Shown here piece after piece: positions 1,060 to 58,900 of a DNA stretch of 64,000 nucleotides (position 1 is its first letter; each line of letters begins with the position of its first letter). The stretch comes from Whitmania pigra. Its lineage: Eukaryota > Annelida > Clitellata > Hirudinida > Haemopidae. The position numbers and the translations under genes are program-made. The notes under the pieces were generated by a model that ran no database searches, was not told the DNA's origin, and saw nothing but the letters and a program-made list of their open reading frames with translations. The DNA lies in the NCBI GenBank assembly GCA_021613335.1, contig JAJTWR010000067.1, positions 1,313,501-1,377,500 of the forward strand, read 5' to 3'.

Positions 1060-4000
1060 ATGAGCATGAAAAAGAATTGGCTCAACATGTACAAGAAGCG
1101 AAAGGCTTCTTACGACGGCAACGATGTCGTCTCCCGCTCGAATAATTTATCTCTGCAGAACTCCATGAACCCGACGGTCCTGAGTCCGCTAAACGAGGTT
1201 TCCTCGACTCCTTCCATCCCTGTTTCCGAACACACCCAACTCCCAGCAGACACGTGGACTAACTTAGTCTCCTGCCATCCGATTATAGCCCGGGGACCCG
1301 AACATCAAACGCTTTACGACGAGCTGAGAAAAACGTGTTACCTCATCGAGGCTGCCAATCTTCCAACGACCAGTAAAAATGGTCACACTTTTATCCCGGA
1401 CGTGTCCAAAAATACCGGATCAGCCGATGCCAAGCCTGCCTTCCAGCTCACTTACAGAGCCATGTTGGCTAGGAAAGGCTTCTTAGCCAGAAATACACTC
1501 GGCTCGGGATCTTATTCAAAAGTTTCTGTTTCTGTTTTGTAATCTAAAGTGAATGCTTTTAATTGTTTTTAGATGGTCGTGTTGAGCAAGAAGTAATGCT
1601 AAAAGGAAAAATTAGAAAAAGTTATCTTAACATAAGCTGAGAAATAAATTTTAAATAAGAAGTTAATTGTGAAAATAAATTGTGACTCGATTGAGAATGT
1701 AAACTTGAATACTTGCAAGAAATAACAATTTGCACTTGCTTTATTTAGCATTACCTCATTTCAGCTCACAAAATGTCTACTTATGTACTTTAGTACTTCA
1801 AAAATCTGATCATTACGAATCAGTTCCAATATCAGTTAATTAAAAAAGCTGAATCATCTATAAATAATAACTCTAGCTAAATTCTCAATATCCGTTAATG
1901 ATATTTTTTGTATTAATACTAATATTCTTATTGCCATCATTAATATTACTATTAAATATTCTTATTAACATTAACAGAATCAATATTCTTATTACCAATA
2001 TTAATTAATATTCATACGACCAATATTAATATCGGTTTGCCAATTACAAATTAAGGTAAAAAAAGTTCTTAACTGCAACGAATACCCCGTGACAGTGGCA
2101 GCTGTCAAGATCATAGACAGGCTCAAGACACCCAAGGACTATCAGGAAAAGTTCATGCCCAGGGAGTTGGAGATTTGGCCACAACTGAAGCACCCTAATC
2201 TGGTGGCTCTTCTGGATCATTTCTGTGTTAGATTTACAAATTTATAAGAATATTTTCAATGACATTATTTTCTGCCAGTGCAATCTCGTTATGAAAAAAT
2301 ATTGTCATTGCGAAGCTTACAACATCTTTCATTATGTCATCATCATTATCATAGACGTCACTATCATCATCATCATCCTCGTCATCATCGTTACCATCGA
2401 TTAGCATTACTAATATCCTCTCAAGAGTTGTAACGAACTAGTAGCGCAATACAATACGTGTGTTGTAACAATAATTATTAATATTAATAGACCGTGAATC
2501 ACGTTACAAGGAATGTGATAAAACACAAGACATCCTGTTAAAGAATTTAGTATTATAAACAATTTAGTAATTTACCAGGGAGTGATAATATAAGAAATAC
2601 AAGTAAGGCAAACAATAAGAAATCATTGAAAGAGTTTAGAGATATGAAAACATGAAAAATTAATTGACAGACGGAATAACTTTCTTAGAAGGTCTGCATT
2701 CATTTTCATGTCTGTCACTTGACTTAGCCACTAGGTTAAGCAGAGATTATTGTACAGTAATAACAAAAAAAATAATAACAATAACAATGATAACAACAAC
2801 GGTAAGAATGATAATAACATCAATAATAACGAAAATAATAATAATTAGTAATTGTACTGGTCTCTGCAATCAATTTTTATTATTTCCTATTAATTTTTAA
2901 TGTGTTCGCCTGGAGACTCGTGATGATGAGTCATCGACGTGTTGGATTTGATTGAGTCAACAACCAGAATGATCAAATGACAATAAAAAAACTAACAAGA
3001 CAAACAACAACTCATAAAAGTGCCAAGCTTATTAAAAATGTCTTTATTTTTCGCACATTTAAATTTAAATGTTCATGTTACTTGCGATGACAAGACCACG
3101 TATGATTCTGTTGCAATGAAGATTAATGCAATTGAGTGGAGAAGTTACGTAATTAATTAATTAATGACTTTAGTTATTTATTCATCTCTTGTGCAACTCA
3201 ATTTTCAATCTCCAGTCATATAAAGATTTATTTTCAATCGGATAAATGTCGGAATATTCTTTTCAAGTTCAAAATCTAGAGTGAATACTGAGTTCAAGTA
3301 TTATTAAAGATAATTATTTGAACTTTATTACCATCTAACATGTAACATATGTGATACGCTTGTTTATTAAGTGATGGTTAGAAAAGCAAATGATCGCAAA
3401 TCACAAAGCAGAATAAATAAAGCAAAGTAAACTAAGCAGAATTCTCAAAGCAGTAAGCTTTTACAAGTCTAAGGATCCTTAGCTATAATTAGCGGGCAAT
3501 AATAAATCAACAAACAACAATATAAAGGAATTAACTTTTAATTAATTTTCAAAAAATTTAATAACCAACTATTAAGCAAGTGCAAGGTGTTTACAGAGTT
3601 TATTAAAGCAAGTCATCCATGGCATCTCAAAATTACCTGCAGCACGATTTCTCCGTCCATTGTCATTCATTCCGTGTATAGATCTTCACGGAGCACCTCA
3701 TATTCATCTAGCATACGTGCGCACACGTCATGGTCGTTCATCATTCCATCTTATCACAACCACTACCGACAGGATGTGAGGAGGGTCTTCATGGTCCTCG
3801 AGTACGTCTCAGGGGGCGATGCCCTCCAGTACATCCAGAAGAACGGCGCCGTGGGCGAGTGCGTTGCCCAGCGCTGGAGCAAGCAGATCGTCGACGCAGT
3901 TCAGTACCTCCACAACGCCAACATCACCCACAGGGACCTAAAGCTGGAGAACATTCTCATCACCGAAGACGAACAAATCAAGATCTGTGATTTCGGTTTC

Positions 4001-5135
4001 ATTAAGCGACAGGCCGATAACAGCGAACTCAGCAAGACTTACTGTGGTTCGAGGTCTTATGCCGCCCCTGAAATCCTTATGGGTCGACCGTACGACCCTA
4101 AGAAGACCGACGTCTGGGCCATCGGTGTCATATTGTACATATTCGTCTTTGGGAATATGCCGTTTGATGAAACAAAGGTGGTTGTTATGGATTTGTAGTA
4201 GGATGTTTGCTTTAATATTTTAACGACAGTTTTTAAAGTGACGTCTGTTTAGCTGTAATTCTTGACAAGCCGGCTTCTCTGGGATTCGAATTCAACCTTA
4301 CTGGAATTAATTTATAAATTCCTCAATTCCTTCACAGATCGACTTAACATCTTTTGTGTGTCTGTCTGATGATATATTTTAACACGAAGGCAAGTTTTGC
4401 AATTGCTATCCTTCAAAGCAACAAGTCCGGGTTAAATTCATATATCCAGAATTTAGATACGTTTAGTCGTTACTTAATAAAACGTAAAAATAAAAAATAT
4501 ATTTATATACAAATACTAATTTATTATGTTATAAGAGACGGTCAACGATGCTCCATTTTATCAATCAACGTCAGGGTACAAAGAGCATGTTGAAGGAGCA
4601 AGAAGCCATGGATCTGAGATGGATCAAGTACAAGAACAAACTCTCACCTCACTGCCAACAACTTCTAGTCAAAACGTTTACCTGGGATTTCGAGAACAGG
4701 CCAGACATTCACTTCTTGCAGAGGAGTGCCTGGTTCTCCTACGCCCTCTGTACCTCGCCCAATAGCGATCCCTGCTCTCATCACAAGGGCATCAAAGCTC
4801 CGGCATCGAGTACCAATCGGATGGGCTCAGACTCTCGACCGTGTCGGACGCTATCGCCTCTCCTGGCGGCAGCGGCTGCCGTTCTGGCCGACGAGAAAGA
4901 CATGTGCGAGGAAAGGTGCTGCGAGGGAGTTCGCACGATGCTCGACGGTCTCAAACCCTCGAGGTCAAAGAGCGAAACCAATTTATTGACCGATGCCAAG
5001 TCTAGTTCAGAAAGCAAGAAACCGAACGCTAGTCAGAGGGCAAGGTCTCGTTACCGTGCCCCAGGGTCGACAAAGCCTGCTCCTAGCGGCCAGCTCGGCG
5101 ATAGGGCGGCAACCCATAGAACGAATGCCATGTGA
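1060..5135 (+). CDS. TSSK-like serine/threonine protein kinase
   Basis: Four exons, all phase 0: 1060-1521, 2056-2226, 3773-4177, 4575-5135, giving about 532 residues. Kinase motifs are complete: Gly-rich loop LGSGSYSKV (~148-156) spanning the first intron, VAIK-type Lys in AAVKIID (~172), HRDLKLEN (~264-271), DFG (~284-286), APEIL, and a final Arg-containing lobe (FENRPD). The pattern and the catalytic loop fit the testis-specific serine kinase (TSSK) branch of the CAMK group, which phosphorylates substrates during sperm maturation. That role is inferred from family. The N-terminal ~135 residues and the C-terminal Ser/Arg-rich tail make it longer than typical TSSKs (~270-370 residues). The start is the first ATG in a frame that begins just upstream. 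The exon 4 acceptor could be 4575 (CAG) or 4584; 4575 gives the better family spacing. Confidence 0.85.
2227..3772 (+). other. Second intron of the TSSK-like kinase gene
   Basis: About 1.5 kb of AT-rich intron with a TCATCA-type microsatellite near 2335-2400 and an ATA/ACA-rich stretch near 2765-2850. No other coding segment or structured RNA was recognised. Confidence 0.6.
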
Positions 5136-40177: not shown

Positions 40178-41670
40178 ACCTCACATTGATTGACGAGCAA
40201 TCAAACAGAACCACTTTATTTCTTGTGAACCTTTAAACATTTCTTTTTTATGTTCTTTGGCTCCGAAGCAAGGTCGTAAGCACTTAACTCGACTCGACGA
40301 AATTATGCAATTTGAATCTTGTTTGCCGTTGCCTAAACTTCTAAGAAACAATTTAGTTGAAAAAGATGGTATTTTTGCTTTACAAATAGCTAAACTGTAA
40401 TTGCATTCCAGGGTTTTTGGTTCTATTTTTGGTTTTTAGAAAACAAATCGACCGACGGTTTTGACTTTTTAGAAACTGTTTGAAGTGACGGCAGACAGAG
40501 CGTGCTCGTTCGCCTGTCTCCTGCAAGGTACGGATGGGAGTGGGAAAGAGCCTGAAAGTAATTTCAGCAGCACTAATGTCCTCAGCTGCGATGACTTTGA
40601 ACAATTTCGAAGCAGTCTCGTGTTTGACAGGCACTGCACACTCGTCTTATTCGAAATCCACTTCATATCCACGGAGTCGTCAAACTGCAGAACATGCTAA
40701 ATGTAAGTGCGAGAGAGCGCTGTGATTGTTCCCCGCCTGTAAGATGAAGACGGCATACAGAATCCCATCGAACAGTGTTTTTTTTCTATTCGGTTTTTTG
40801 TACAAATTGAATCATGGCAACACGCCCGGCATCATACAGCATCGTTGCTCGCTGCAAGGTCGCTTTTTCCAGATCCGTGCGCTAGATTGAGAGGCGAATA
40901 AGCTCGATGCGGAAACAGGAGTGGAGACGCTCTTGGCCATAACTTGAGTTGTGACTCACCTCCTCTAACAGCCTGTGGTTTCAGCAAATGGCGAAAGTGG
41001 TTAATGGCGGCTGTTCGCTCGGCTAATTGACTCTCGAGCCGGCGAGAGTGAAAACGGAGAAAATGAAAGAGAGATGGTAAGGTTTGCAAATTGCCGTTCG
41101 GGCTGTCATCCGTAATCTCCATATATTATAACATGTGGAGCAGATCACAATCGTACGCTGGCATACATTATGCACCTATTCCCCTCTCCGTACCTTCTCA
41201 TCTTCCCTTGGCTTGCGTACAGCCATAAAGAGATCTTCGTAACACTGGATCTCCTGACAGATGTTTCGACCGGTCACCGGATTGGTAATTCGAATGTTTT
41301 GATTTTTAACATAAAGGTTTGTTCGTCTCTAGTTAATTTTTAATAAAAATTAGTGAAAAAGCAAGACGGATCGCTATTCTAGTTTCTGCAAACTGCGTCG
41401 GAAACCGTGGTAAGATCAAACTACTCTCTATGCCTGCAAGGTTAGATTTTCATGCACATGGGTGGACCGATCTCATACTAAAGATTATGTCGCAAACGTA
41501 TGTGTATTATTCGCCGGGATTAAATTATCCCTACTTCTATAACGACCACACGTGCAGCGCATCGGTCACAACACGCGCTAACAGTGTAACCAGCTCGTAT
41601 TCAAAACACCAACTTGTGTTTTTTGTTTCTCCAGACTTTCATTAATGACGGTGGTCTAAAGATCACGAAA
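40178..41670. other. Interval between FAM161 and the Q-rich EVH1-like gene
   Basis: About 1.5 kb. It probably contains the promoter and non-coding or unresolved 5' exons of the downstream gene. A good acceptor (TTTCTCCAG, ending 41634) sits in frame just before that gene's first ATG. No upstream coding exon could be assigned. Confidence 0.5.
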
Positions 41671-43524
41671 ATGATGAACTCGAGAAAGCGCTACAACGTA
41701 GAAGTGGACAGACTGTCTCGCATCGAGGAAGACTTGGAAAGACTGAGTCTTTGCGGGGACAGCCAGCCAACCGTAACCAGTGTTCAGCTCGTGAATAGCC
41801 AGCACCTACAACAACAAGTGCAGGACAAACTGCTCGAATCCATACCCGTGGAACAGCATCTGATGGTCGAGAGAAGTGCCCAGAGAGATGACAAGTTACT
41901 GCAGCACCTTCAACAGCAGCAACTGATGCAACAACAATTCCACCAACAACAGATGTTAAAACAGATTCATGCCCATCAGATGGGCTATCCGGATTCAATC
42001 CGTTCGAAACACTTGCAGCAGGAGAGCCAACCCATCTCCCAGCAGATCGACCACCGCCAACAAACCAATCGTCCCGGCATTCAATACTGCAGAATCGAAC
42101 ACGGCCGCTCGGAAATTGCCAATCCTCTCGGAAACCATTACCAACATCTGGCGGACTTCCAGTCCGGTCGAATGAATCTTGACCAACTTCATTGCAGCCA
42201 TCACGCCACGGTCGAACAAAAGAACGCCCTGGAATCCCCCGACGGCCCAGACGGGGCGAAGTTTCTGAAAGAGAAGTACGACTCACTGGGAAAAGTGAAA
42301 GTTCCCAAGCCTCAAGGAACGTCCAACAATTTCAATGGTCAGGATCGAACGCAGCAAGAACACGACAGGTCATCGAATCAGTTTCAGGTGCTCGTTGGGG
42401 CCGAAGGGGCCTGCCAAAATCCCTTTGCTCATTTTGACGGGCAACAAAGAGAACAGTTCCACGAGGTTCATTATTTCCACGGGCCCCGGCAACGACACGA
42501 TGCCGTTCACGCCGGGGGAGAAACAACCCAAGAGCAGGAGAACCAATGGAGGCAGCACTACGATCGTCTCCCGACCAAGGAAGAGCAGGTCGTTGCCTCG
42601 GAAGAGCGAGACCGGGCGACTTCGAGCCGACAGCAAAACTTGAAACCTCAACAGCCTCAGGAGAGGCACTTGCTCAATGAACACGACTTGATGCAAGTCG
42701 ACATCTTCTACAGGAGCCAAAGATCCAAGATATTTGTTTCTCGTTGCTGTGCCAATCTGATGATGGGTCCGCAGTGGTCCTTCCAATCCACCGGCAGCCT
42801 GGGGGGATCTCCCGCCTCGGGCGTGCGTCAACTCTGCCGCAACTTCAGAGACTGGGCCTGCGTCAAGTCGGGCGTGCCGGTCCTGGTGCTGGACACGTCG
42901 AAGAACGAGCTGTGCATCATCTTGGCCGAGCACGGATCCGGCTTCGCCCTCTGGCGCAACAGAATGGGTCCGCTGACCGGCTACTCCGTCATCGCCGCGG
43001 ACTTCCACGCTCTGAGAACCGACCCGTCCATGCAAAGGAGTCTGGCGAACAATCCTTCGTCCACGCTCGTCACTTCGATCGTCGGTTTGAATTTCGTAGA
43101 CGCGGAGGCTGCAGAAGAATTTTACAAAAACGTCGTCACTCTTTCGACTCTAGCTTCGTCTCTCGGCTCGGTAGCGACTTCGAACAGAAATCGCCACGTC
43201 AGCGGCGACGCCCTGAACGACTCGCAACAGCGCGATCACGGTCTTTCCAACTCGACGCAGGACTTGCAGGCTTCAGGAATCAATAAGCAAAACGGCGAGA
43301 GAACGAAAAACTCGAAAAAGAGCAAAAGATCCTTCAGCAAGACCGACATTTCTCAGCCGTGTTGTTTTTCTCACGTGACAAAGCTAGGAGACCGGTTCAG
43401 AGATGGATCTTCTAGATTATTCCTAACCACCAGCGACACTAACGTGCTCGTAAGGGGTACGGCGACGATAGACAAAAAATCAGCCCTGCACAGACTACAG
43501 TCTGGATTGAAGCAAAAGCATTGA
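41671..43524 (+). CDS. Q-rich protein with EVH1/PH-like domain, unknown function
   Basis: A single large exon, about 617 residues from the ATG at 41671. Residues ~45-110 are Gln/His-rich (QQQLMQQQFHQQQ). Residues ~350-490 look like an EVH1/WH1 fold: KIFVSRCCANLMM, then W..Q-STGSLGG, a strand VPVLVLDTSKNELCIIL, GFALWRNRMGPLTGYSVIA, and the closing SIVGLNFVDAEAAEEFYKNV, which resembles the GLNF...A..F helix of Ena/VASP and Homer domains. EVH1 domains bind proline-rich partners in cytoskeletal or synaptic complexes. The C-terminus is basic and Ser/Lys-rich. No exact orthologue is recognised. The frame is open upstream to an acceptor at 41634, so an additional 5' exon with the true start is possible. 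Confidence 0.6.
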   Translation: MMNSRKRYNVEVDRLSRIEEDLERLSLCGDSQPTVTSVQLVNSQHLQQQVQDKLLESIPVEQHLMVERSAQRDDKLLQHLQQQQLMQQQFHQQQMLKQIHAHQMGYPDSIRSKHLQQESQPISQQIDHRQQTNRPGIQYCRIEHGRSEIANPLGNHYQHLADFQSGRMNLDQLHCSHHATVEQKNALESPDGPDGAKFLKEKYDSLGKVKVPKPQGTSNNFNGQDRTQQEHDRSSNQFQVLVGAEGACQNPFAHFDGQQREQFHEVHYFHGPRQRHDAVHAGGETTQEQENQWRQHYDRLPTKEEQVVASEERDRATSSRQQNLKPQQPQERHLLNEHDLMQVDIFYRSQRSKIFVSRCCANLMMGPQWSFQSTGSLGGSPASGVRQLCRNFRDWACVKSGVPVLVLDTSKNELCIILAEHGSGFALWRNRMGPLTGYSVIAADFHALRTDPSMQRSLANNPSSTLVTSIVGLNFVDAEAAEEFYKNVVTLSTLASSLGSVATSNRNRHVSGDALNDSQQRDHGLSNSTQDLQASGINKQNGERTKNSKKSKRSFSKTDISQPCCFSHVTKLGDRFRDGSSRLFLTTSDTNVLVRGTATIDKKSALHRLQSGLKQKH

Positions 43525-50337: not shown

Positions 50338-51531
50338 CTATTTGCTGTCGTATTTTCCCTCGTCGAATGCCTTCCTTGCCTTCTTGAGTTCCTCGTTCAT
50401 GAGCAGGAGGTCCTTCACCCTCGAGTACTTTTTCGGGTCCTTCCTGATGAGGAAGACGATGTCGTCTGCCGTGATGCGATCGGGTTTGCCGATGTCGAGC
50501 GCCTTTTTTGTCTGGAAGCGATTGGATCAAGATTTAAAGAAACAAGTGAATGGTAGTCATATTAGTTACAAAACTTTAAGGAAATAAGTCACCAATGATG
50601 CAATTTAAAGCAATTTAAAGGCAAACAAAGCTCCAAGCTGAAAGATGAATGCGAATTACTGATTTACATCCTAACAAATCGAGTGTACAAGTGCAGAAAA
50701 TAAGTTGAACGATGACTTGAAATAAGAAACACATTACCATCTCGCAGATGTACTCGATGACCATATCCTCCAGCAAGTCCACAGACTCGGAGTACGGGTT
50801 GGGGTCGTCCCCGAAGCCATACATCATGCACCTCACTGCAGAGACAAAAACAGTTGCATTACTAGATTTGTATAAATAATACAATACAATAATCCCCTGG
50901 AAATACATAGCTCCATAAGTCATTTTTACAGCCTCCATCTCTAAAAAAACTATAATCTAGCCTATAAGTTCAACTTTATTTGACCATTCCTCAATTTCGT
51001 GCAGCAAAAAATAAATTAGAATAATCTTCTAAAACAACTTCAGAACTAACATTCTTTTGTGAACATTTTCTTCTTTCTCTCTAGTGGGACATCATCTTCA
51101 TTGTCATCTTCGTCAATCTTTTTGGAAGCAAATCAAATGTAACGATCATTCCTTAACATACTACTCAGAAACCATTTAAGGTGAAAATTTTAAACCCATT
51201 TAAATAAATTCAAGTTAGATTATTTTAATAAATTATGTCATGAAAATTAGCAGCTGCCCAACAAGCAACCATTCAACATAGCATTACAAAATTGTAGAAC
51301 TCTAAAATTAGTTAAATTTATTTAATGTAGAACACATTCATAATGCTTTCTTAGGTTTCTTAATAAGGCAAGTTTAGTGAGAATTGTAACAAAATGTTTT
51401 TTGAAGCTTTATAAGAATTGCTTGTATTCAGTTTGTAATTTGTAACAGATTGACATGACAGGCTTGTTGTAAAATAAAGTCAAATACAAGGTTAGTAATA
51501 CCTCTCTAAGAGAATCCTGGTTTTCAGCCAT
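50338..51531 (-). CDS. TAF13: TAF13, TFIID histone-fold subunit
   Basis: Subunit of the general transcription factor TFIID; its histone fold pairs with TAF11. Four exons on the minus strand: 51502-51531, 51051-51117, 50738-50835, 50338-50511, phases 0,1,0, giving 122 residues; human TAF13 is 124. After a short acidic N-terminus (IDEDDNEDDVPLE) comes the conserved core LRCMMYGFGDDPNPYSESVD, then DMVIEYICEMTKKALDIGKP and DRITADDIVFLIRKDPKKYS, ending KARKAFDEGKYDSK. The match is nearly residue for residue. The first exon is only ten codons. Confidence 0.96.
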
Positions 51532-52088
51532 TGTTTACGAGAGCTTAAATATTTATTATTTTGGCGACGAATTCTGAAAACTCCGTTGTAAGCAGCAGCA
51601 CAACGCGAACAAATAATACTTTTATTTATTTTAAAAATTTTGTTTATTTTAAATTTATTGTATTTAAAATTTATTTAAGACTTGTGAAATTATTTGTTTT
51701 AATATGTTATATAACATAAATAACATAACATTATAAAATACATTAAATGTATATTAATATACAATTTAAAATTTTAAAAATAAACATTGAACATGTTTTA
51801 AAATTTAACTTAAGTACTACAAGAAAGTAGTTTATAAAATTTAAATAAAAAGTATTAATAATAAATATTTTAAATAAATACAATCAAATGTTTATATCGT
51901 ATAATAATTGTTTTGTACAATGAAATTTAATTTCTTATATTTCTGCCTGGCAGTGTTCCACTTCCTTTCGGATGCGTTTCCCCTCCTTCTTGGGGCCTTG
52001 ATTGTTGTTGGCCACGTTTTAGGCGTTATCCGTGGTAATTTTGGTGCTCTCAAATGATTTATTAGCGGTTATCTGTAACTAGTTTGCA
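51532..52088. other. AT-rich region upstream of TAF13 and the snoRNA pair
   Basis: Very AT-rich from 51600 to 51930 (TTTAAAAT-type words). A GC-richer island at about 51950-52040 contains, on the minus strand, a 27-codon frame (NVANNNQGPKKEGKRIRKEV...) that ends in TAA at the island's left edge and is closed upstream by another TAA. It could be a gene remnant. On the plus strand the same island precedes the snoRNA pair and could belong to their promoter or host. Confidence 0.4.
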
Positions 52089-52171
52089 ATCCCTATGATG
52101 AACGATGTCGTTCTTGAGGACCATGTTCTCTGAAGACTAAACATGTCATCACCTACCGAATCTGAAGGGAT
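52089..52171 (+). ncRNA. C/D-box snoRNA candidate, copy 1
   Basis: Box C ATGATGA at 52095-52101, box D CTGA at 52162-52165, and a perfect 6-bp terminal stem ATCCCT/AGGGAT flanking the boxes. An internal CTGA at 52130-52133 can be box D'. The guide region before box D reads CATCACCTACCGAAT and is identical in copy 2, predicting 2'-O-methylation of the G in a target containing AUUCGGUAGGUG by the D+5 rule. I could not place this target in rRNA or snRNA. Length about 83 bases is typical. It lies outside any recognised host intron. Confidence 0.72.
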
Positions 52172-52247
52172 AAATACAAACTTGATGTACTTTTTTTATG
52201 CATTTTAGAATTATTAATGCAAAAGTTGCGAAGGATAGGTTTTATCT

Positions 52248-52331
52248 TTCCCTATGATGAATGATGTAGTTCTCGAGGATTTATTTCCTCTGAAGACTAA
52301 ATATATCATCACCTACCGAATCTGAAGGGAA
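52248..52331 (+). ncRNA. C/D-box snoRNA candidate, copy 2
   Basis: Tandem relative of the preceding RNA about 160 bases downstream: box C ATGATGA at 52254-52260, box D CTGA at 52322-52325, D' CTGA near 52290, and terminal stem TTCCCT/AGGGAA. The outermost stem pair is T-A here and A-T in copy 1, a compensatory change that supports a selected RNA structure. The D guide is identical to copy 1, while the D' guide region differs (GAGGATTTATTTCCT here, GAGGACCATGTTCT in copy 1). Confidence 0.72.
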
Positions 52332-52903
52332 AGTGCTATAATTAATATCTTCAATCCATTGTGTGAACAGTCGTTTGTGAGCAGGGACTTCCCCAAATTG
52401 CCTTCTTATTGCGAAATCCAAATAGATGACCTACTGAAGTCGATAGATATATTCATTGCATGCAACAAATATGCACTGTGATGGAAGATAACGATTTAAG
52501 CACGTTCTTATATCTGGTGTAACTTGCAATTTGAGAGGGGATTCAATATTTATTCGTAATATATCAAAGCAAATGTACAGACATTTTGTACCATTTTGTA
52601 ATTTTCAAAAAGTCATGTAAACCTTCACTTTCCCCAAGTCAAAAACAAAATAAAATTATGCAAAAAAACATCAATCCCAAAAGAAATTGCACTGACTTAA
52701 CTTTTTAGGTTAGTATATTGTAATGATAGACAAGAAAGTTAAAATCATGAGAACATTGGGTAGGTGTCACAAAATTTAACTTAATAAAGTGCAGATTAGC
52801 CCCACAATTGGATTGTAAAAACTGATAAACTACATCAATGTGTTTAAATTTTAATTCTCCATGCTTTGAAAACCATGGGATAATTTATTGAGACTAAAGG
52901 GAG
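52332..52903. other. 3' flank of SMARCAD1, nothing further recognised
   Basis: AT-rich sequence between the snoRNA pair and the SMARCAD1 stop codon. Probably includes the SMARCAD1 3' UTR. Confidence 0.5.
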
Positions 52904-55900
52904 CTACTTCATCTTCAATGCTTCCTTCAGCATGGAGGCCACATCACCTGAATTCATTTCTTCATCTAAAATTTATAAAATTTCTTATAATCAATTATCA
53001 TTAATAATAAGCAGATGAATGACTTTATACATCTAAGTTATTCAATTATTATTAGAACTAAATAGCTTCAAGCATTCCATACTAGGAAGGCCTGATTGAG
53101 CAAAAGCCATATTCATAGACCCACCTGCGCTTGTACTAGTAACCTCTCTCTCTAACTTGAGTTTTTCTTGGGCACACTTCAACATGGCTTCTTCTATCGT
53201 GTTCTTTCCAATAAGTCTGTATAGCGTCACATCCCTGAAATTTGAATTCAAATCGGTCAATAATCTCCACCTTCGATGCAAGAAAAAGAAAAATCACTCA
53301 ACGGTGTCGACTATGATAAGATTTTGTGTTCGCAATTTGGATCACGAGCATGTAATGAGTAAAAAGCAAAGATGCTGCTAGCACATTGATCATACCATTA
53401 GATTGTACATGGATAAAAATTACAATACCTTTTCACCATCAGCACGTTAATTGTACCAATTGTAATGAGCAAAAAGCAAAGATGCTGCTAGCATGTTGAT
53501 GATACCATTAGATTGTAGATGGATAAAAAAATTACAATACCTTTTCACCATCAGCATGTTAATTGTACCAATTGTAATGAGCAAAAAGCAAAGATGCTGC
53601 TAGCATGTTGATGATACCATTAGATTGTAGATGGATAAAAAAATTACAATACCTTTTCACCATCAGCATGTTAATTGTACCACAGGCAATAATAACCAAA
53701 ACGAACCTCGTTTGCCCAACTCTGTGACATCTATCCTCGGCCTGCTTGTCGTTGTAAGGGTTGAAGTCGATATCGTGCAGGATGACTACGTTGGCGGCGA
53801 CCAGGTTGATGCCCATTCCGCCTGCCTTTGTCGAGAGTAGGAAGACGAAGATGTCGTCGTCCTCACTGAATTGGTCTATCAGTTCTTGTCTGCGGTGACA
53901 ACATTAATTAATTGAGTTAAATAATTGCAACTTATTAAAATAACTAGTAAAAACATTCATGTCATTTGAAGCATGTCATTGTTCTCCAAGAGAAAAAGAC
54001 AAACAATTTTCAAGGTTCTTCAGAACAAACGATAAAGAAAAACGAGATTTGCATGCTCCCCTCACCTTTCAATGACGGGGGTCGAACCATCAAGTCGTAG
54101 GTACTTGTGATTTCTCTCCTCCATGTATGCCTCGACGATGTCCAACACCATCGTAAACTGGCTGAATAGCAGAACTTTATCTCCCTGAAGAGAGTGATTG
54201 AATGAGTTTAAGAAACATGACAAAATAATAATAATCAATAAGACATTGTTGAACTAGTAGCTTACTTTAGCAATTGATTATCATTAATATTAATAATTAT
54301 TATAATATAATGATAATAAATAATATACTAAATAACTAATCAATTATTATATAAATCTAATAATAATAATAAGAGTTACCAGAATAATTAACAATAATGA
54401 CAGAGATATCTCCCTGAAGAGAGTGATTGAATGAGTTTAAGAAACATGACAAAATAATAATAATCAATAAGACATTGTTGAACTAGTAGCTTACTTTAGC
54501 AATTGATTATCATTAATAGTAATAATTATTATAATATAATGATAATAAATAATATACTAAATAACTAATCAATTATTATATAAATCTAATAATAATAAGA
54601 GTTACCAGAATAATTAACAATAATGACAGAGATATCTCCTTGAAGAGAGTGATTGAATGAGTTTAAGAAACATGACAAAATAATAATAATCAATAAGACA
54701 TTGTTGAACTAGTAGCTTACTTTAGCAATTGATTATCATTAATATTAATAATTATTATAATATAATGATAATAAATAATATACTAAATAACTAATCAATT
54801 ATTATATAAATCTAATAATAATAAGAGTTACCAGAATAATTAACAATAATGACAGAGATTTGATATAGAAACCCAAAACGTGACATCGGCATAAAAAAAC
54901 CTTTTTTTTCATGGTCGGCAACAAGTCGTCGAGTTGCTTGAACTTTCCCGACGCGAGGATCTTTTCTCTGGGCAGGCAGTGGTCTTTCAATACCTGGAAA
55001 GTGGAGTCCTTGTCAGAAGTCAGTGTCAATAAGGACTTCATAAAGTTATAGAAAAAACCAAAAAGAAATAAAAAATGCCCTTTTTTTGGCAATCACAATC
55101 ATAATGCTGAATGAAATATAATGAGTCAATTATCCAGCCATCCACTGCTAGTAATGCTATCATCAATCCCATCATCCTATAAATAACATGTGAGCAACCA
55201 TGTGTTCATTTGTCCAAAATGAAAAAGAATATCAGTATGAATACTCGACCCAAGAACATGATTGCAAAAGTATGCTAAGCATTGCTTGCTGACAGCAGCA
55301 TCATTCTGGACTCCCACCAACCTTGTATTTTCTGCAGAGAGAATGGATCTCAAAGTCAGACATGAACTGGAGATCCTCGTAGATGGCGTTCTCGTCTGAA
55401 CTCCTGTGCTCTGGGTCCTTGATCAAGTAAAAAAAGCAACGAGTTATTATTAATGTAATGTAAAGACAATTAGAGAGCAGCTAGATGTTACGACCGGCAT
55501 TATTCGTGGCAAAACAGAATTTTTGTTTGTGAAAATGTGAAAATTTGTAATATTAAATTAATTAATCAAAAATAATTTAAATCTCACTTTAAGTAACATC
55601 TTTGTGATGGCCTTTAATTTAGAGTCTTCGTAATTCTTCCTGTGAAGCAGCTCGTGATTGGCCGCCTTCCTTAGCTGCATCATCATGGATGCCCCCGAAC
55701 TGAGGGGATTCTTCTCCGTCACGTCTTTCATGAACTGAGTCTTGAGGTCGGTGTAAAGGTCCTGTTGACTGGGGGTCAGGGAAACCCTGATTGTGTGTTC
55801 GGTCTTTTTGGGAAGTTGTTGCAACACGTCTGCCTTGAGTCTTCTGAGGAAGAACGGTTGCAGGATTCTCTTGGCTTGCTTCAGGGTTTCTTGAACGTAC

Positions 55901-58900
55901 GTACCCCTGCTGTCATTGGCTGACGCGTCGGTTTTCTCGTTTTTGGCAGCCTGTTGAATATAAAAAGTAGAGTAGCAAAATATTGACAATATGTGAAGCA
56001 CCTAGAAACACTGTGGTTTTAATACAAGCAAAGACTGCTTAATGCCTGTTTAATGGCGAACACATGCAGCAACTCACAGAGAATATTTTTTTCAAGTGAT
56101 CAGTTTTCCCTGCAAATATGTCCGGCATGAGGAAACACAAAAGTGAGATGAGCTCCAGGAGGTTGTTTTGGAGAGGTGTGCCGGTCAATAGCAGTCTCCT
56201 CTCTGCCTGCACGAAGATGCAAACAACAATGACGACAACGTTTTAGAGGTGCAGAAGATTTTTTAAATTAGGAGATATTGCCAATCATAAATTTGCTAGT
56301 TAAAAAAAATGGTATAACTTTTCATCAAATTTTAAATTACGATACTTATTTACCATGACATTATTTTTAAGTATTTTCTAATAACAACTACGAAATTGCC
56401 AAGTGTTGATAAGAATGCTCCAGATATAATAAACGTTTACAATCCACTATTTACAAGATTTTGAAATTCTAATTTGCACAACTGATTCTCACCGATATCC
56501 TGGTCAGGTTCTTGTAGCGACTTGATGCCATATTTTTGAGCATGTGACCCTCATCGAAGATGGCATAAACATACTTGTACTTCTTAAATAGCACCTTGTC
56601 TTCCAGACTGCCAGATGCCATGTTGTAGCTGAACAAAAATATAACATACTTCATTTATGTAGTGCCATATGCATAGCATCAGAAGTGCTTCTTGTTGACT
56701 GTTTTTACAGCGCTCATTTCCAAGGGCACTTGCAGCAGCTCGGGCTGGGTTTCGAACACGACGCATTGGAATTGCCATTACATCCACACACAGAGACCTA
56801 ATGCTTTCAGCCAATCTGCATTCAAATCGAAGGGGCTCAACATCAAACCTAATTTAGAAATACCCCTTTTCCTTTAAACTCCAATACATCCATGCATGAC
56901 AACCGAAATGAGGAAAAAAACTCACGACGTGAGGATGACGTTGACTTCCATTCCCTCGTCCAATAGTTGACTCCTCAGGTCCCTTCTCTCCTCCTGGGTA
57001 CCGTAATAAGGCACAACTTTCATGGCTGGACACCATTTCTGCAACTCCCTCAGCCAGTTATCTGATGAATGTGTAAATCTAGTTACTAATTTATTATTGA
57101 TATTGTCATCATCATCATCATTATTATTATTATCACAACATGATTGGATGATCGAAATTTGAATCTAACCAATGGTTGAAGAGGGACATACAATGACATG
57201 GGGTCCTCTATTTCCCTGCGACAGGAGATGAGCCAGGAAGGCAATTGTCTGAATGGTCTTTCCGAGACCCTGAGCAAAAGCAAAAAAAAAAAAAGAATGA
57301 TTATATGACTCATAATTTATCTATTATTATATTCATTATTACAGAATAAAGCATTTGCCTAATAAATTACAAAAGAGAATAAGATGCTAAATAAGCAAAT
57401 ACAAAAGTGTCTGACCATTTCATCTCCAAGAATACCATTGAGTTTGTGAGAGTGCATCATTATAAGCCAGTTGATGCCTATCATCTGGTAAGGAGTCAAC
57501 TTCAATCTGTGGAATAAAGATGGAACTAACCCATTAACATTTTTATTAATAATCATTTTCAGTTGTCCATGAACAACGATATTGCGTGCCATTGTGCATC
57601 CAAATCCGATTGACATGCAATCATTAACTAAATTCTTATTTACCTCACTGCCCAATTAATTAACATACTTAATTCGAGCAAATCAGAAATGCAACCAGTA
57701 AAACTACCACCAACCCCGGAGAGAGAATTGCCGGCTGCTTGACCAGGTAGCCGCACTTGTTCCGTCCTCCGCTCGGGTGCGTGCCCCGACCCCCCATGAT
57801 GTCCGAAATGGAAGACTCGAGGTTGGCCGAGATCATCTGACAGCTCTCCATCAGTTGCTTGACGTTGTCTCTGACTTTCAGCAGGTCTTGGCATTCCTCC
57901 ACCAACCAGTGGCCGAGCTGTCTGTTTTCTTCAAGTTTTTTATCCTGCAAAGTCATTTACTTAAAAATCAGGATAGAAATATATGGATGTATAGATAGAT
58001 AGACAGACAGATAACTTTCATTTATCACATCGGGTTGAAAATATTCATTCTTGAACTCACAAGATCTTCCCAGGATTCAAAAGGTCTCATGTTGATGACG
58101 GACTCGGCTTTTTTCTTTGAGCATCCGTTCATGGAAGTCAGTTCTTCAAGTGTGGCAGAGCTCAAGAAGCTCAAAACCATCCCTTGCATGATTGGGTCAC
58201 CCTTTTTCTGTGTAAAAGCAAAGTAATGCCTAAAATGTTCATATTTTCCATTGACAAACATTTCCATATTAATTCATATTTTTAATTCTAAATACAAAAT
58301 TTCAACCACTCCTTCTTAATTTATAATGTTAATAAAAACATTAACAGCCATTTACAATTGCAAACTTTAGACAGACAGTTAGATAACTCTCAATTTGTTC
58401 AACAATCACTAAGCTTGAGATGAATTTGATAATAATAATTTTTGTCCAGCATAACACTTTATTTATTGCAGATAAAATAATCATTTTTCCATTTTAAAAA
58501 AATCAGTTTCTAACTCACCTCCTCTTCTTTGTCCTCCTCGTGATCATCGTCATCGTCTGCATTCTTGTCTTTGACTTCCGATTCCGAATCGGAGTCGACC
58601 ACCTTGACCCTCTTCATTTTTTTCACTTGCGGAGAACCTGCTGTCGATCGTAGGAAAAGTGATTTTAAATTTTATGTGAAGCCACAAATTGTCAGCAAAT
58701 TACTTCAGGGTTATAGATTATAATCTATTATTCATCAACAGAACAATGGAATAAATTATAGAAAAATGACATAGACTGTAAATAGAACAGTAAAAGCACA
58801 AATGACATTTTAGATTAAAACACTTGGACAAGCATCAGATATCCAAGAGATGAGTTGGCACAGGTTAAATAGCATCTGATGGATGCAGTACCACATGGCA

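Follow-up and report, generated by a model that had tools for sequence, protein, structure and literature searches.

Two short units lie one after the other on the forward strand of the leech Whitmania pigra, each with the boxes of a box C/D snoRNA, and the locus raises two questions: whether it encodes a pair of such RNAs, and which nucleotide their common guide would address. RNAs of this class are stable small RNAs bound by fibrillarin, NOP56, NOP58 and 15.5K. In the window, which is the whole stretch of 64,000 nucleotides analysed here, the pair is found between a TAF13-like gene (TFIID-18kDa domain, ORF 50615-50935) and a SMARCAD1-like gene (SNF2 domain, ORF 55558-55998; its top hit in the PDB is a SWI/SNF-related subfamily A protein), both on the reverse strand. 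The region of the SMARCAD1-like gene also holds two tandem arrays, at 53351-53682 (three units of 112 bp, 96% matches) and 54178-54859 (three units of 226 bp, 98% matches), which are probably intronic. Further away in the window is an ORF of 636 residues (41614-43524, forward strand), for which there is no Pfam family; its relatives are one of 88% identity, on an ENA contig, and four more distant ones with 29-33%.

The first copy is 83 nt long (52089-52171). Its terminal stem of 6 bp is formed by 52089-52094 and 52166-52171, and within the stem are a box C, ATGATGA, at 52095-52101, an internal CTGA (box D') at 52130-52133, and a box D, CTGA, at 52162-52165. The second copy (52248-52331) has the same elements, with box C at 52254-52260, box D' at 52290-52293 and box D at 52322-52325, and its stem can be extended to 52246-52333, where arms at 52246-52253 and 52326-52333 make 8 bp. 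An earlier note, made from the letters of the DNA, had described these boxes and stems, and all of them were located. Its description of 83-base units with 6-bp stems fits copy 1, whereas copy 2 has 84 nt with the 6-bp stem and a stem that reaches 8 bp. It had also remarked on a compensatory change in the outer stem pair. This is indeed present, A52089-T52171 in copy 1 corresponding to T52248-A52331 in copy 2, but one such pair is weak evidence by itself, because it comes from two paralogues of one genome.

Both copies therefore carry the RUGAUGA near the 5' end, the CUGA near the 3' end and the terminal stem (6 bp in copy 1, 8 bp in copy 2) that define the class, and the complementarity to a target, of which at least 10 nt is expected, amounts at box D to 15-18 nt on 18S-derived sequence of the same genome. 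No clear C' box was seen in either copy on inspection by eye; C' boxes are frequently degenerate in box C/D snoRNAs. By the features that can be tested in the sequence, the clear C' box excepted, the locus is a box C/D snoRNA pair.

This pattern is rare in the window. A strict scan of both strands, for RTGATGA with a CTGA 50-120 nt further on and a 5-bp stem (G-U allowed), returned these two places only in the 64 kb, whereas 50 mononucleotide shuffles gave 0.16 on average and never more than 2. The predicted fold is strongly stable in copy 2, taken as 88 nt with the long stem (z -3.86, none of 200 shuffles equally stable), and unremarkable in copy 1 (z -1.70, 12 of 200). A DNA search of the 178-Mb assembly found the pair at this location only. 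Sequences resembling guide plus box D occur with two mismatches at three further places, against four for a control pattern, and these matches are therefore background.

The two copies are identical in 72 of 84 aligned columns, with 11 mismatches and one gap. The differences are unevenly spread: the D' spacer takes four of the mismatches and the gap, that is 5 of the 12, and there are none in the 15 nt 5' of box D, so that 52147-52161 and 52307-52321 are the same sequence. The identical D guide and the diverged D' guides had both been pointed out beforehand. Boxes C, D' and D are likewise letter-identical. Outside the unit the likeness ends. The 77-nt flanks share 37 identities upstream (shuffled mean 42.3) and 41 downstream (mean 40.6; 200 shuffles), and with identity confined to the unit and flanks at the shuffled level, an older duplication seems to have been erased everywhere except in a segment of the size of the RNA. 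The evidence for conservation of boxes and guide comes from two paralogues of one genome.

Rfam places the pair in no family. In the whole window there were no matches at the gathering score, and a search of 51900-52600 up to E 10 gave 11 matches, all far under their cut-offs, including the plant snoR21 model (22.1 bits, cut-off 45) and the snoCD11 model (21.0 bits, cut-off 60). CD11 of Dictyostelium is assigned to 26S Am3279 (PMC8817022). The pair accordingly has no Rfam family, while the class itself is an ordinary one. The earlier note could not match the shared guide to a known snoRNA; the guide now has a candidate target in rRNA.

That target emerged from a search of the whole genome for the complement of the shared guide with wobbles tolerated. 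Of its seven matches, two are the snoRNAs, two appear unrelated by their flanks, and three lie in 18S-derived sequence and all read ATTCGGTGGGTGGTG. A control pattern gave five matches, so that only the location of the matches in rDNA is telling. The guide pairs with AUUCGGUGGGUGGUG at every position between N+1 and N+15, two of the pairs being G-U, and the duplex continues with more G-U to N+18, starting at 52144 in copy 1 and 52304 in copy 2. The copy on contig C235 is recognised by Rfam as eukaryotic SSU rRNA; the copy on C100, which is short, gave nothing above threshold. When 763 nt of the C235 copy were used in a DNA search, 30 matches were found, among them C100 (99% identity) and C320 (98%). 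The site is covered in full by four of these matches: three have it exactly, and in the fourth bases have been lost there. The 18S copies are dispersed fragments and an intact rDNA unit did not turn up, so that the target in the working rRNA is deduced from three fragments that agree.

The fragments are 35 to 763 nt long and are scattered over contigs C235, C184, C365, C183, C11, C100 and others; by eye, a retroelement-like stretch adjoins the one on C235. Full-length matches to 5.8S rRNA, equal in score, are present on four contigs (C164, C225, C163 and C224). In the stretches retrieved from C164 and C225 they lie at 3997-4139 and 3975-4117, respectively, with no 18S or 28S beside them in either stretch.

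The match was compared with that of other sequences in the same DNA. For this control every usable CTGA motif of the window was taken, 493 on the two strands together, and the 22 nt 5' of each were matched. Against the 763-nt 18S piece the two D boxes come top of the 493 with 18 nt, the next best reaching 16. Against all the rRNA pieces, 2,464 nt in total (18S, 763 + 55 nt; 28S, 847 + 656 nt, which partly overlap each other; 5.8S, 143 nt), they are still first, the order being 18, 18, 17 and 16. Duplex energies for the 24-nt guides on the 18S piece are -29.8 and -27.7 kcal/mol; of 1000 shuffled versions of each guide, 1 and 0, respectively, reached this on the same piece. With a match to 18S of the same genome in the N+5 geometry, the shared guide is no orphan by its sequence.

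The D' spacers behave quite differently. Against the 2,464 nt of rRNA pieces their best matches are 9 and 11 nt without a mismatch, or 12 and 12 with one, and such reach is common: at least 9 nt is found for 235 of the 493 motifs, at least 11 for 69, and at least 12 with one mismatch for 135. There is thus no notable rRNA match upstream of either D' box, and complementarity of the kind seen at D is not found at D' in these pieces. On the rRNA pieces scanned, in which 18S lacks its 5' part and 28S is largely missing, and with no snRNA among the targets, the D' spacers are probably unconstrained, have drifted and guide nothing. Of the proposal that the pair has one shared and one divergent target, the first half is supported by the fit to 18S, and the second is left with a reach on rRNA of just 9 and 11 nt; with values so unexceptional among the 493 motifs, it is simplest to suppose that the shared guide works and the D' spacer is idle.

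Five nucleotides upstream of box D stands a C, whose pairing partner is the bracketed first G in AUUC[G]GUGGG. By the N+5 rule, the first G of the GG in AUUCGGUGGGUGGUG is the predicted methylation site. This G lies 9 nt 5' of the U in GGUGG[U]GG, which we take to be human Um1326 and yeast Um1269. The assignment agrees with a spacing of 11 to the helix-34 cytidine, on the assumed numbers 1356 and 1337. That cytidine is Cm1367 in the fly, and its human counterpart carries ac4C, according to PMC13228274.

A search of the literature for a mark at the same column gave several candidates. In Arabidopsis, U1264 lies 9 before U1273 and is served by SnoR8 and SnoR67 (PMC8053127), and in Dictyostelium, Um1255 lies 9 before Um1264 and is served by CD20 (PMC8817022). 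The gap is also 9 in tomato (Um1263/Um1272) and, by prediction, in O. tauri (Um1231/Um1240); the same compilation has human and yeast blank at the column and tobacco marked 'np', for non-mapped (PMC11542601). From the equal spacing we infer that the Arabidopsis and Dictyostelium columns are one, although in the table of the Dictyostelium paper Um1255 is accompanied by dashes for Arabidopsis, yeast and human (PMC8817022). A plant Um1261, given as absent from yeast and human in PMC8351944, is taken as the same site in an older numbering. Among animals, the planarian has a full Gm1258, 8 nt before Um1266 and outside the sites that its authors count as conserved (PMC11649923). By plain subtraction, unaligned, it is one nucleotide off the predicted G; a neighbouring mark or a register shift could explain the offset. 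Among the open papers listed for the site in other animals, which leave out the fly site list, this planarian neighbour is the only lead, and an earlier description in fly or worm may exist. The target column is already known in other lineages, and is better known as a mark in plants and amoebae than in human and yeast.

How the pair would be expressed is suggested by splice-like signals around it. A putative intron of 134 nt (52075-52208, forward strand) runs from a GT at 52075 to TTTTTTTATGCATTTTAG ending at 52208 and holds copy 1, which starts 14 nt past the intron start and ends 37 nt before the intron end. A second putative GT...AG intron, of 132 nt (52239-52370, forward strand), holds copy 2 in a similar position, 9 nt past its start and 39 nt before its end, and a putative exon of 30 nt (52209-52238) would separate the two. 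An AATAAA at 52649-52654 on the same strand is a possible polyadenylation signal of the host, or a six-base motif present by chance. The parallel layout of the two is suggestive, and we lean towards an unannotated forward-strand host with one snoRNA in each intron of about 133 nt. We do so with some reserve, because GT and AG are common, those of the model were picked from several, and GTTTTA makes a weak 5' splice site for the second intron. Directly 5' of the first putative intron is an ORF of 45 codons (51920-52057, forward strand) with a hydrophobic, signal-like start; it could be fortuitous, or encode a small protein carried by the host RNA.

The earlier note had left the choice between independent transcription and an unannotated host RNA, and the splice-like signals suit the second. 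A pol III unit for both copies was considered and is unlikely, as there is no TATA[AT]A on the forward strand in 51900-52720, and a run of seven Ts follows copy 1 and not copy 2. Independent pol II transcription of the pair is possible.

It might be supposed that these are genuine C/D snoRNAs with another function, either orphan guides on ETS/ITS, snRNA, tRNA or mRNA, or chaperones of this 18S region that do not methylate. A duplex of 15-18 nt exceeds the length that methylation needs, and in copy 1 the pairing can extend further across a bulge, as would suit a chaperone; in addition, the column is blank in the human and yeast lists. However, the top-ranked rRNA match exactly adjoins box D in both copies, and Nm has been mapped at the N+5 column in other lineages, and we regard a function of this kind as unlikely. 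The position of the match also bears on a role like that of SNORD13, in guiding acetylation, where the RNA would bind helix 45 (3' end of 18S) so that the ac4C cytidine stays unpaired. A single fragment of the 18S 3' end was found in the genome, and with its TTTCCGTAGGTGA the guide does pair 8+3; the one mismatch falls on what is presumably the ac4C cytidine. Against this, the duplex at helix 45 has -14.9 kcal/mol, whereas the 15-nt guide reaches -25.0 at the main site, and it is the main match that directly adjoins box D in the manner of a methylation guide. SNORD13 has two widely spaced antisense arms that flank the helix-45 cytidine, a layout not seen here, where the pairing is 8+3 on one short stretch. 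Helix 45 was rejected as the guide target for its much weaker duplex, and acetylation guiding can be given hardly any weight.

The units could also be silent copies in decay, with the working snoRNA gene elsewhere, as the diverged D' spacers would allow. Yet the 178-Mb assembly yielded no other place by DNA search, and boxes and guide have stayed letter-identical while the flanks have dropped to the shuffled level, which makes decay very improbable.

We therefore hypothesise, with a probability of about 0.8, that these are two paralogous C/D snoRNAs that use one shared guide for methylation of the predicted 18S G, as redundant isoforms with an idle D'. Each copy would be freed from its own intron of about 133 nt in the forward-strand host RNA, would fold into a C/D kink-turn closed by the terminal stem and, as expected from its class, would recruit the standard C/D proteins and fibrillarin. 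The 15-18 nt directly upstream of box D, whose complementarity is evident, would then pair with 18S rRNA at AUUCGGUGGGUGGUG, and fibrillarin would 2'-O-methylate the first G of AUUC[G]GUGGG, both copies presumably serving this one site.

A wider reading is that the lineage has retained two copies of a guide dedicated to one 18S methylation, a mark known from mapping in plants and amoebae and absent from the human and yeast lists, and that the mark falls here on G where those have U. We offer it tentatively, at slightly under an even chance. If it is true, the mark would be either ancient, with repeated loss, or a second invention at that column, and the redundancy of the copies would point to its importance in this lineage. 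If the G is methylated, plants, amoebae and the leech lineage would share a mark that has no human or yeast counterpart in the lists, and this would help to place in time the gains and losses of rRNA methylation in the small-subunit head. In any case the 'orphan' call becomes a checkable prediction about one named 18S rRNA nucleotide.

Comparison with known systems shows where the locus is ordinary and where it differs. Non-coding hosts of the UHG type carry intronic snoRNAs, one per short intron, and the leech locus would be alike in having one snoRNA per short intron with a short exon between; it differs in that its host is putative and unannotated, and in having two snoRNAs only. SNORD33/SNORD32A, snR55/snR40 and the plant U33/SnoR34/SnoR21 have their targets in the same 18S stretch (Um1326/Gm1328), but methylate 9 and 11 nt further 3', so that the register of the guide differs. 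By spacing, the closest likeness in target position is to SnoR8/SnoR67 of Arabidopsis (18S U1264, 9 nt 5' of the Um1326 equivalent) and CD20 of Dictyostelium (17S Um1255, or 1264 minus 9), which address the same column. In both the target is a U, while in the leech it is a G, and the likeness is one of target position.
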